This document shows positions 25,940 through 28,706 of a stretch of DNA of 64,000 bases, one piece after another (the stretch's first letter is position 1; the number at the start of each line of letters is the position of its first letter). Origin of the DNA: Streptomyces nitrosporeus. Lineage in GTDB: Bacteria > Actinomycetota > Actinomycetes > Streptomycetales > Streptomycetaceae. Made by a program: the position numbers and the translations under genes. Under the pieces are notes generated by a model. The model saw only the letters and a program-made list of their open reading frames with translations. It searched no databases and was not told the origin of the DNA. The stretch lies in the NCBI RefSeq assembly GCF_008704555.1, contig NZ_CP023702.1:3906001-3970000 (forward strand). Direction: 5' to 3'.

Positions 25940-27034
25940 TCAGACCTCCTCGGTGGTGGCCGCGGCACGGGCCGCGGTGACCGCGGGGTGGACGGGGGCG
26001 TCCGGCACAACGGCCGGGCGCAGGGCGGCGAACTCCTTGCGGAGCACCGGGACGACCTCCTCGCCGAGGATGTCGAGCTGCTCCAGGACCGTCTTGAGCG
26101 GCAGCCCGGCGTGGTCCATCAGGAACAGCTGGCGCTGGTAGTCGCCGACGGCGTCCCGGAAGCCCAGGGTCCGCTCGATGACCTCCTGCGGGGAGCCGAC
26201 GGTCAGCGGGGTCTCGCGGGTGAACTCCTCCAGGGACGGCCCGTGGCCGTAGACCGGGGCGTTGTCGAAGTAGGGGCGGAACTCCCTGACCGCGTCCTGG
26301 GAGTTCTTCCGCATGAACACCTGGCCGCCGAGGCCCACGATGGCCTGCTCCTCGGTGCCGTGGCCGTAGTGGGCGTAACGGCGCCGGTAGAGGGCGACCA
26401 TCTTCTTCGTGTGCTCCATCGGCCAGAAGATGTTGTTGTGGAAGAAGCCGTCACCGTAGTAGGCGGCCTGCTCCGCGATCTCCGGGGAGCGGATCGAGCC
26501 GTGCCAGACGAACGGCGGGACGCCGTCCAGCGGGCGCGGGGTCGAGGTGAAGGACTGGAGCGGCGTACGGAACTTCCCCTCCCAGTCGACGACGTCCTCG
26601 CGCCACAGCTTGTGCAGCAGGGCGTAGTTCTCGATGGCCAGCGGAATGCCCTGGCGGATGTCCTTGCCGAACCAGGGGTAGACCGGGCCGGTGTTCCCGC
26701 GGCCCATCATCAGGTCGACGCGGCCGTCGGCGAGGTGCTGGAGCGTGGCGTAGTCCTCGGCGATCTTCACCGGGTCGTTGGTGGTGATCAGCGTGGTGGA
26801 GGTCGAGAGGATGAGGTTCTCGGTGCGGGCGGCGATGTAGCCGAGCGTCGTCGTCGGTGACGACGGGACGAACGGCGGGTTGTGGTGCTCGCCGGTCGCG
26901 AAGACGTCCAGGCCCACTTCCTCGGCCTTCTGCGCGATGGCGAGGGTCGCCTTGATCCGCTCGTTCTCGGTCGGTGTACGGCCGGTCGTGGGGTCGGTGG
27001 TGACGTCCCCGACGGTGAAGATCCCGAACTGCAT
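25940..27034 (-). CDS. LLM-class flavin-dependent monooxygenase (CE1758-type)
   Basis: This 364-residue luciferase-like TIM-barrel protein begins MQFGIFTVGDVTTDPTTGRT. It contains DVFATGEHHNPPFVPSSPTT, LSTSTTLITTNDPVKIAEDY and GRVDLMMGRGNTGPVYPWFG, all normal for bacterial luciferase-like FMN-dependent oxygenases. It sits first in a two-gene operon with the flavin reductase. A GTTGAACGTTGAAC repeat just upstream (27058-27071) is shared with the pirin promoter region, hinting at common, perhaps redox or electrophile, control. Confidence 0.92.
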   Translation of the reverse strand: MQFGIFTVGDVTTDPTTGRTPTENERIKATLAIAQKAEEVGLDVFATGEHHNPPFVPSSPTTTLGYIAARTENLILSTSTTLITTNDPVKIAEDYATLQHLADGRVDLMMGRGNTGPVYPWFGKDIRQGIPLAIENYALLHKLWREDVVDWEGKFRTPLQSFTSTPRPLDGVPPFVWHGSIRSPEIAEQAAYYGDGFFHNNIFWPMEHTKKMVALYRRRYAHYGHGTEEQAIVGLGGQVFMRKNSQDAVREFRPYFDNAPVYGHGPSLEEFTRETPLTVGSPQEVIERTLGFRDAVGDYQRQLFLMDHAGLPLKTVLEQLDILGEEVVPVLRKEFAALRPAVVPDAPVHPAVTAARAAATTEEV

Positions 27035-27057
27035 GACGCCCGCCTCCGTAAGAAGTG

Positions 27058-27071
27058 GTTGAACGTTGAAC
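27058..27071 (-). promoter_or_regulatory. Direct-repeat operator candidate upstream of the LLM/reductase operon
   Basis: Read on the gene strand this is GTTCAACGTTCAAC, 24 bases before the start codon, followed by a third TGTGAAC-type half nearby. It matches 13 of 14 bases of the element before the pirin gene, in the same orientation relative to the gene. Confidence 0.5.
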
Positions 27072-27116
27072 TATGTGAACACACCCTACAACGGGTGGGG
27101 CCGGAGAGCTATTCCC

Positions 27117-27225
27117 GGGTCCCGGGAGGGGTGGCGAAGAGGGCCCGGGAGGGGCCGGGGGCGGGGCCCGGGAGGGTCGGGGACGGAGGCCGGGGAGGGG
27201 AGGGGGGCGGGGCCCGGGACGGGCT
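27117..27225 (+). repeat. Purine-rich, G-run tract
   Basis: About 110 bases of nearly uninterrupted G-runs (GGGCCCGGGAGGGG-type units) lie between the divergent LLM operon and the trpS leader. The G-runs are of a kind able to form quadruplexes. No gene is present here. Confidence 0.6.
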
Positions 27226-27269
27226 GCGGCCCCTCCCCCGGACGGGCGGTGACCGGTACACTTCTCCGT

Positions 27270-27311
27270 ATGACCTCCGTGCCGTGCCGTAACTGGTGGC
27301 GCTCCTCCTAG
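27270..27311 (+). CDS. trpS leader peptide with tandem Trp codons
   Basis: The short frame encodes MTSVPCRNWWRSS, with adjacent TGG codons at 27294-27299. It lies 117 bases upstream of trpS. Directly overlapping its end is a hairpin (arms 27300-27306 and 27310-27316), and 29 bases further is a terminator hairpin with six T. This is the layout of ribosome-mediated transcriptional attenuation: when charged tRNA-Trp is scarce, stalling at the Trp pair would prevent terminator formation. The auxiliary, indolmycin-resistant TrpRS gene of Streptomyces coelicolor is reported to be controlled in this way. Confidence 0.85.
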   Translation: MTSVPCRNWWRSS

Positions 27312-27339
27312 GAGCGGCCGCCTCATCTGCACGGAACCA

Positions 27340-27368
27340 GGGCCGTTCGACATGGACGGTCCTTTTTT
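27340..27368 (+). terminator. trpS attenuator terminator
   Basis: Seven-base arms GGGCCGT (27340-27346) and ACGGTCC (27356-27362), with one G-U pair, enclose a 9-base loop and are followed by TTTTTT (27363-27368). T-runs are rare in this genome, which supports a functional intrinsic terminator. It lies 60 bases before the trpS start. Confidence 0.85.
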
Positions 27369-27427
27369 CGTTGCCCGGGTCCGGGCGGGCCGTCCTCCAC
27401 GCATCCAGCACCCGCGAGGAGACCCCG

Positions 27428-28522
27428 ATGACCACCGCCCCCGCAGCCTCCCCCGCCACCCCCGAGGTGACGGCCCCCGCTCCTTCCGCGAGCCCCGCCC
27501 TGCGCCGCAGCGCCGAGCTGGAGCGGCAGATCGCCCAGGATCCCGGGCGCTTCCGGGTCCTCACCGGTGACCGGCCCACCGGCGCCCTCCACCTCGGGCA
27601 CTACTTCGGCACCCTGCACAACCGGGTGCGGCTCCAGGACCTCGGCGTGGAGGTCTTCGTGCTGATCGCCGACTACCAGGTGCTGACCGACCGGGACGTC
27701 GCGGACCGGCTCACCGAGCACGTGGAGGGACTGCTGCTGGACTACCTGGCCATCGGCATCGACCCGGCGCGCTCCACGGTCTTCAACCACAGCGCCGTAC
27801 CGGCCCTCAACCAGCTGCTGCTGCCGTTCCTCTCGCTGGTCTCCGTCGCCGAGCTGGGCCGCAACCCCACCGTGAAGGACGAGATCGCCCACTCACGGCA
27901 GTCGTCCGTCAGCGGACTGATGTACACCTACCCGGTGCACCAGGCCGCCGACATCCTCTTCTGCAAGGGCAACCTCGTCCCCGTCGGCCAGGACCAGCTG
28001 CCGCACCTGGAGATCACCCGCACCGTCGCCCGGCGCTTCAACGAGCGGTACGGGGCCGTCTTCCCGGAGCCGGACGCGCTGCTCTCCGCCGCGCCGCTGC
28101 TGCTCGGCACCGACGCCGGGAAGATGAGCAAGAGCCGGGGCAACTCCATCACCCTGGCGGCGAGCGAGGACGAGACCGCCCGGCTGATCAAGGGCGCGAC
28201 CACCGACGCCGAGCGGCACATCACCTACGACCCCGCAGCACGCCCCGGGGTCTCCAGCCTGGTGCTGCTGGCCGCGCTCTGCCTGGACCGGGACCCGCAC
28301 GAGGTGGCGGAGGAGATCGGGAGCGGCGGTGCGGCCGTGCTGAAGCGGACCGTGACGGACGCGGTCAACGCGAGGATGGCCCCGATCCGCGCCCGGCGCG
28401 CCGAGTACGCCCAGGACATGAGGTACGTCCGGGGCGTCCTGCGGGACGGGAACGAGCGGGCGAACGCGATCGCCGAGGCGACCCTGGACGAGGTGCGCCG
28501 GGCGATGGGCATGATCCGCTGA
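27428..28522 (+). CDS. trpS: Tryptophanyl-tRNA synthetase, auxiliary type
   Basis: This class I synthetase of 364 residues shows the HIGH-type motif in TGDRPTGALHLGHYFGTLHN and the KMSKS loop in GKMSKSRGN. The TGDRPTG-x-LHLGHY form marks the second TrpRS subgroup, different from housekeeping enzymes that read SGxxPTGxxHLGNY. An Ala/Pro-rich N-terminal extension of about 30 residues precedes the core. A GAGGAG site precedes the ATG. Expression should depend on the leader peptide and attenuator just upstream. The inference is an inducible TrpRS made when Trp charging is impaired, for example by an inhibitor such as indolmycin. Confidence 0.93.
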   Translation: MTTAPAASPATPEVTAPAPSASPALRRSAELERQIAQDPGRFRVLTGDRPTGALHLGHYFGTLHNRVRLQDLGVEVFVLIADYQVLTDRDVADRLTEHVEGLLLDYLAIGIDPARSTVFNHSAVPALNQLLLPFLSLVSVAELGRNPTVKDEIAHSRQSSVSGLMYTYPVHQAADILFCKGNLVPVGQDQLPHLEITRTVARRFNERYGAVFPEPDALLSAAPLLLGTDAGKMSKSRGNSITLAASEDETARLIKGATTDAERHITYDPAARPGVSSLVLLAALCLDRDPHEVAEEIGSGGAAVLKRTVTDAVNARMAPIRARRAEYAQDMRYVRGVLRDGNERANAIAEATLDEVRRAMGMIR

Positions 28523-28560
28523 ACCGGGACCTCCGGGCCCCGCGCCCTCTGCTTCCTGCT

Positions 28561-28680
28561 TCCGGGCTCCTCGCCTACCAGGGCCTCCGCCCCGGGCTCT
28601 CCGCGCACCAGGACCCTGCCCCCGGCTCTCCGTGTGCCAGGGCCACCGTCCCCGGGCTCTCCGGTACCCGGGCCCCGCAT
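28561..28680. repeat. 30-bp tandem repeat, four copies
   Basis: Units start at 28561, 28591, 28621 and 28651. Each begins CCCGGGCTCTCC or a near copy and contains ACCAGG-type cores. The copies are imperfect. They fill the gap between the convergent trpS and RCK-protein genes. Confidence 0.75.
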
Positions 28681-28706
28681 CCGCGCCCCCGCCCCGGTGG
28701 CGCCGT

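Follow-up and report, generated by a model that had tools for sequence, protein, structure and literature searches.

The window, a 64,000-nucleotide stretch of the Streptomyces nitrosporeus genome, contains a gene for a tryptophanyl-tRNA synthetase (TrpRS), trpS, preceded by the three elements that define a trp-type attenuator: a leader open reading frame (ORF) with tandem Trp codons, an antiterminator that excludes a terminator, and an intrinsic terminator ahead of the gene (Table 1). The divergent gene at 25940–27034 encodes a protein that we take to resemble luciferase-like oxidoreductases. A sequence-only reading of the locus had proposed a 13-codon leader with NWW near its end, a hairpin at the Trp codons and a hairpin followed by six T residues before trpS, together making up a complete ribosome-mediated attenuation design. 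Each of these parts was recovered: the ORF, which recurs upstream of related trpS genes, the Trp-codon hairpin, which is present in the minimum free energy (MFE) fold, and the terminator, which was the sole site returned by a terminator scan of positions 26900–28700 (0.2 expected from shuffles). The antiterminator and the TACACT box are additional to that reading, and with the antiterminator included all the classical parts are present and conserved.

Table 1 Features of the trpS leader region, with positions in the window
Feature	Positions	Strand	Remarks
–10-like box TACACT	27257–27262	+	7 nt 5′ of leader ATG; predicts leaderless transcript
Leader peptide ORF, MTSVPCRNWWRSS then stop	27270–27311	+	ATG at 27270, TAG at 27309–27311, 13 codons
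Trp codons 9–10 of leader ORF	27294–27299	+	leader stop codon directly 5′ of region 2
Hairpin 1:2, spanning Trp codons and stop	27295–27322	+	in MFE fold; –21.1 kcal/mol alone
Region 2, GAGCGGCC, antiterminator 5′ arm	27312–27319	+	pairs with 27341–27348, –14.2 kcal/mol
Region 3, GGCCGTTC, common to antiterminator and terminator	27341–27348	+	pairing, constrained folds
Intrinsic terminator	27339–27368	+	stem 27339–27363, region 4 at 27354–27361, six T at 27363–27368
Shine–Dalgarno-like GAGGAG of trpS	27416–27421	+	read directly from sequence
Auxiliary trpS (type C), 364 aa	27428–28522	+	ATG at 27428; TIGR00233 profile match

Folding of positions 27270–27371 gave an MFE of –49.1 kcal/mol, in a structure containing both hairpin 1:2 and the terminator stem. 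The mean of 200 shuffles of the same stretch was –34.6 kcal/mol (s.d. 3.2), corresponding to a z-score of –4.5, and none of the 200 was as stable. The antiterminator is formed by eight base pairs between regions 2 and 3, and region 3 doubles as the 5′ arm of the terminator. In constrained folds the ribosome was represented by masks built on the usual ribosome footprints, covering nucleotides 1–39 (ribosome at the first Trp codon) or 1–54 (ribosome at the stop codon). Without a mask, hairpin 1:2 and the terminator form; with nucleotides 1–54 masked, the terminator forms; and a 1–39 mask on a transcript cut off at region 3 yields the antiterminator (–14.2 kcal/mol). With the same 1–39 mask on the full-length RNA, the MFE structure is the terminator and not the antiterminator, which implies that the antiterminator must form first and persist.

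In a TIGR00233 profile search of the S. nitrosporeus genome, two TrpRS genes scored above the cut-off, that of the window with 229 bits and another, at G000:C1:2934590-2935573, with 359 bits; a second trpS is thus present, and the sequence-only reading, which calls the window gene auxiliary, passed this check. The TrpRS sequences were divided into type A (housekeeping), type B (a second auxiliary type) and type C (the type of the window gene), with type B being 35–38% identical to the window TrpRS. Among 150 Streptomyces genomes, type C is found in 28 (E < 1e-160) and type B in 97 (E of 1e-110 or better); four carry both (G012, G048, G074 and G083), 24 only type C, 93 only type B and 29 neither, giving a Fisher p of 1.5e-9 for this pattern of co-occurrence when kinship is ignored. 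S. nitrosporeus itself has no type B gene at E 1e-110, the only match being its housekeeping gene (5.7e-97).

The leader was followed across 108 type C loci, counted with L002 excluded as a duplicate of L003 and with a few genomes occurring in both collections. Of these, 72 carry a TGGTGG leader that reaches its stop within 12 codons, and six further loci (L005, L008, L045, L046, L076 and L077, of which L008 and L045 are the same in sequence) have a one-Trp leader of the same layout; L093 has a WWW leader with a different layout. At 30 of the 108 there is no such leader within approximately 400 nt, three of these (L065, L105 and L106) having less than 240 nt of upstream sequence. Leaders were found in Streptomyces, Kitasatospora, Microbispora, Kutzneria, Allokutzneria, Actinomadura, Yinghuangia, Georgenia, Paeniglutamicibacter and Propionibacteriaceae, among others, and none was seen at the 14 type C loci outside Actinobacteria, two of which have less than 180 nt upstream. 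The leader frame, start and stop are conserved where the leader occurs, and the leader is predicted to be translated. Related trpS genes are preceded by the same leader and hairpins at the same spacing, so that the parts of the attenuator go beyond what chance would assemble.

The distance from the leader start to the Trp codons is also kept, with eight codons before the first Trp of the pair at 62 of 68 distinct loci, though the residues vary. One clade, of 32 rows, shows near-constancy in the residues that lead up to WW, most rows reading MTSV[P/L]CRN; every one of the 32 has Arg at codon 7, with all four CGN codons in use, and codon 4 varies mainly at its third base. Such constancy goes beyond the need for two Trp codons, and at codons 2–6 it is not explained by RNA pairing, as would be expected if the leader peptide itself were the sensor, its nascent chain arresting the ribosome on indolmycin, Trp or another ligand. 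Outside that clade, however, the residues before WW vary widely (MHLSSCLS, MIRTLCQG, MINSRSFA, MKQLG) while WW, and usually its spacing, are kept, and a nascent-chain sensor is accordingly improbable.

Several loci depart from the common layout. In three distinct Streptomyces loci (L005, L008/L045 and L046) the first leader Trp codon has been replaced by CGG (Arg), leaving one Trp, whereas in the S. lividans type B leader it is the second Trp that is Arg (PMC8079986). The L068 leader lacks an in-frame stop at the usual place. Approximately 330 nt upstream of trpS in L055 (Streptomyces sp. NBC_01016), the leader start and Trp codons are missing and the hairpin arms remain; an open frame that by eye resembles the end of a transposase extends to these arms. 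An intact-looking attenuator in L205 (G310, 1430–2230) precedes a type C trpS from which the N-terminal region and part of the middle region are missing. The type C gene of L086, from a Propionibacterium metagenome-assembled genome (G157), has the WW leader MKQLGWWQA and is the only TrpRS match in that assembly, so that, provided the assembly is complete, the attenuator may there govern the housekeeping enzyme. None of eight type A loci has a WW leader; L134 among the type A loci has an unrelated single-Trp ORF that fits a loose pattern.

The leader start is marked by a promoter-like box. TANNNT lies 5–7 nt 5′ of the leader start at 68 of 68 distinct loci, with a spacing of 5 nt in 1 row, 6 nt in 54 and 7 nt in 13; the search covered spacings of 4–9 nt and every in-frame leader start. 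Before the other ATGs of the same loci, TANNNT at 5–7 nt occurs in 3 of 2,272 cases. A Shine–Dalgarno-like string precedes the leader in 2 of the 68 rows. For trpL1 and trpL2 of S. lividans, leaderless transcripts are reported from RNA-seq (PMC8079986). Taken with the invariant box, this suggests that the leader mRNA is probably leaderless, and that in S. nitrosporeus too it would begin at or near the leader start codon. SCO3334 is reported to be activated by WblC (PMC7157823); the motif GAAAWY, sought 20–75 nt before the leader start, was absent from all 68 type C and all 16 type B promoters, and as type B was expected to be positive this search is uninformative on WblC.

Pairing was assessed in an alignment (A1) of 69 rows, 64 with TGGTGG and five with one Trp, from which identical cores were removed and L093 was left out; region 2 of L064, L075 and L077 was read by eye. 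Across these 69 loci, regions 2 and 3 are paired in 541 of 552 cells and regions 3 and 4 in 550 of 552. The second base of region 2 pairs with region 3 as A-U in 48 rows, G-C in 20 and G-U in one, and the region 4 partner at that position is G in 67 of 69, so that 47 rows have a G-U wobble in their terminator. The swap between A-U and G-C with region 2, while the region 4 partner stays G, is suggestive of region 3 following region 2 and not region 4. Region 2 also pairs with region 1, which limits this reading of the covariation, and a quick TrpRS tree gave four changes of the region 3 base and, where branches are well supported, a single independent pair, which is not enough for significance.

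A covariance model (R1) built from the 69 loci ranked the window element first in the S. nitrosporeus genome (E 6.8e-16). In 150 Streptomyces genomes it located the element in 25 (E 1e-4), which are the 28 type C genomes minus G012, G074 and G083, all three of which also carry type B. Of 27 matches in these genomes, 26 lie before type C trpS; the other is a weak opposite-strand match. One could suppose that an ordinary terminator merely adjoins a chance ORF and that trpS is transcribed from its own downstream promoter, a view with which the consensus promoter scan of 26900–28700 agrees in returning no promoter upstream. It is nevertheless highly improbable, given the placement of those 26 matches and the conservation over 69 loci of the leader start, the Trp position, the stop position and the mutually exclusive pairings.

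The weak match (G070:C79:1889346-1889409, minus strand, L199; E 1.2e-5) lies approximately 400 nt upstream of a regular element. In S. nitrosporeus the second-ranked match, on the minus strand at 5754798–5754883 (E 0.0015), falls on a leader with WWW, MFAQTTQNWWWTAHPAAR, that precedes a gene of chorismate-binding, TrpE-like type (G000:C1, approximately 5754800–5754907, minus strand, L212), and this leader is close to S. lividans trpL1, MFAHSTRNWWWTAHPAAH. At the type C trpS loci of G074, G083 and G012 (L023, L025 and L028, respectively), neither a leader nor a match to the covariance model was found; their upstream regions have in common a motif near ATCTG[AG]TCTGCC.

Among 296 genomes of the class, R1 matched in 10 (E 1e-5), five of them from Streptomyces, with nine matches before type C and one before a type B-like TrpRS. 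The last of these (L207; G280, 1430–1660) is 54–58% identical to type B, and its leader ends in SWWRP, between the two leader styles. No further regulon member emerged from the 150 Streptomyces and 296 class genomes, in searches whose stricter filters lose weak matches. The type C gene has the neighbours of the window in five stretches (L164–L168) and lacks them in five others (L169–L173); of the latter, L169 and L170 have the element and L171–L173 have none. The element accompanies the type C gene in more than one genomic setting.

Comparison with Rfam bears on the class of the switch. The best family in 27230–27440 is Trp_leader (RF00513), at 17.8 bits (E 0.24), a weak full-length match in the right place and on the right strand. 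The window element has the same order and logic of parts as RF00513, and differs from it in falling below the family score of 41 bits, in being probably leaderless and in controlling a single aminoacyl-tRNA synthetase (aaRS) gene. T-boxes are used by most aaRS genes of Firmicutes (PMC1262725); that a T-box or other known riboswitch would take the place of the translated leader here has almost no likelihood, as no Rfam family, T-box included, reached its gathering score in the window and the best match was Trp_leader. A scan of 20 type C loci without the leader ORF, none from Streptomyces, likewise returned no family at gathering score.

The window element is very probably a ribosome-mediated transcription attenuator for an auxiliary TrpRS, working by the ordinary mechanism; this reading builds on the parts themselves, on how they are conserved and paired, and on the presence of a second TrpRS gene. 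The transcript would start with the A of the leader ATG or close to it, and the first ribosome would thus begin without a Shine–Dalgarno sequence. When Trp-tRNA is charged, the ribosome is expected to reach the leader stop codon and to cover region 2, whereupon region 3 would pair with region 4 and transcription would end at the T run. Should charged Trp-tRNA become scarce, because the cell is starved of Trp or its housekeeping TrpRS is inhibited, the ribosome would wait at codons 9–10 and leave region 2 free to capture the emerging region 3; no terminator would then form and trpS would be transcribed. With no translation, hairpin 1:2 would form, making termination the default.

The kind of switch is related to previously described systems. 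Vecchione and Sello (2010) reportedly described the attenuator of S. coelicolor trpRS1, which is SCO3334. Attenuators were predicted by Seliverstov et al. (2005) before S. avermitilis trpS2 and trp operons (PMC1262725), the trpS2 case being likewise a classical attenuator before a trpS. The kind of switch is therefore already in print, in that 2005 prediction and in the 2010 work cited in PMC4787780. In S. lividans, trpL2 is a Trp leader before the auxiliary trpS in which one Trp is kept, LWRAA (PMC8079986, Table 4). The S. coelicolor/S. lividans attenuator and that of the window have in common a short Trp leader, leaderless in the former and probably so in the latter, a stop directly before the antiterminator arm, a terminator and an auxiliary TrpRS.

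We infer that type B is the S. coelicolor/S. lividans auxiliary type, since its leaders (MTTRTCTQLWWAA and alike) resemble S. lividans trpL2, MMTRTCTQLWRAA (PMC8079986, Table 4); on leader likeness, too, the S. lividans gene would be the orthologue of SCO3334. At 20 type B loci looked at among the 97 genomes that carry this type, a WW leader was present every time, and TANNNT lies 6–7 nt before it. These leaders mostly end in WWAA followed by TGA, and their arms are CGGCGGCC/GGCCGCCG, as against GAGCGGCC/GGCCGTTC in the window. The sequence-only reading had likened the locus to the attenuator of the S. coelicolor auxiliary trpS; the likeness holds for the kind of control and fails for the gene, type B having only 35–38% identity, a different leader (WWAA) and different neighbours. 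Judged by lineage and locus, the window element does not appear to be an orthologue of the S. coelicolor/S. lividans attenuator. What differs is that the predicted switch stands before a TrpRS lineage other than that of the S. coelicolor case; it recurs in many actinobacteria. With query genes picked by a codon-composition rule, seven type B stretches had nothing in common with the type C neighbourhood apart from one 42% match approximately 9 kb away, and a simple in-place replacement between the two types was rejected on this ground.

The type C enzyme itself differs at a residue linked to drug sensitivity. Its closest PDB sequence match is 1yi8 (E 5.1e-75), and the near-identical 2a4m is titled TrpRS II; we take these entries to be D. 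radiodurans TrpRS II. Gln84 of the window TrpRS aligns with His43 of B. stearothermophilus TrpRS, and in the PDB alignment of the housekeeping protein this His is residue 43 of chain 1d2r, presumably the B. stearothermophilus enzyme. Gln occupies this position in the window TrpRS and in every one of the 107 remaining type C rows. His occupies it in 22 of 22 rows labelled B, including L032 and L113, which are not true type B, and in the five of five type A rows kept after three of eight were lost to a length filter. Replacement of His43 by Asn gives indolmycin resistance (PMC4899734), and the type C enzyme is possibly drug-resistant, as predicted from its Gln. S. coelicolor TrpRS1 is reported to be resistant (PMC9437257); as type B keeps His and includes this enzyme, the residue at position 43 is not the sole route to resistance.

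A reported resistant enzyme may belong to the window lineage. SGR_3809 of S. griseus NBRC 13350 is described as an indolmycin-resistant TrpRS (PMC6804068, citing Vecchione and Sello 2009). In S. griseus BIG105 there are two TrpRS matches, one of housekeeping type and one of type C, the latter 90% identical to the window TrpRS and with the same leader. As BIG105 has only these two genes, SGR_3809 should by elimination be type C and of the same lineage as the window TrpRS, a placement made via BIG105. No description of the S. griseus leader was found in a literature search, most subscription papers being outside its reach.

As a tentative picture, to which we give rather less than even weight, two auxiliary TrpRS lineages, approximately 36% identical and seldom found in one Streptomyces genome, would each be held under a leaderless WW attenuator, the RNA device staying constant while the enzyme is swapped behind an alarm for Trp charging. 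Type C, with Gln for His43, would in this picture be an old inhibitor-proof TrpRS, and its switch would sense any antibiotic that targets TrpRS. The element is compact and probably leaderless, and its many comparative loci make it useful for the study of attenuation on transcripts without a Shine–Dalgarno sequence; it also links a switch predicted to be inducible to a TrpRS lineage in which an inhibitor-contact residue is altered. It predicts that resistance to indolmycin-like drugs would appear only once the drug has lowered Trp-tRNA charging, and suggests that the backup TrpRSs of Streptomyces may be interchangeable behind one kind of switch.
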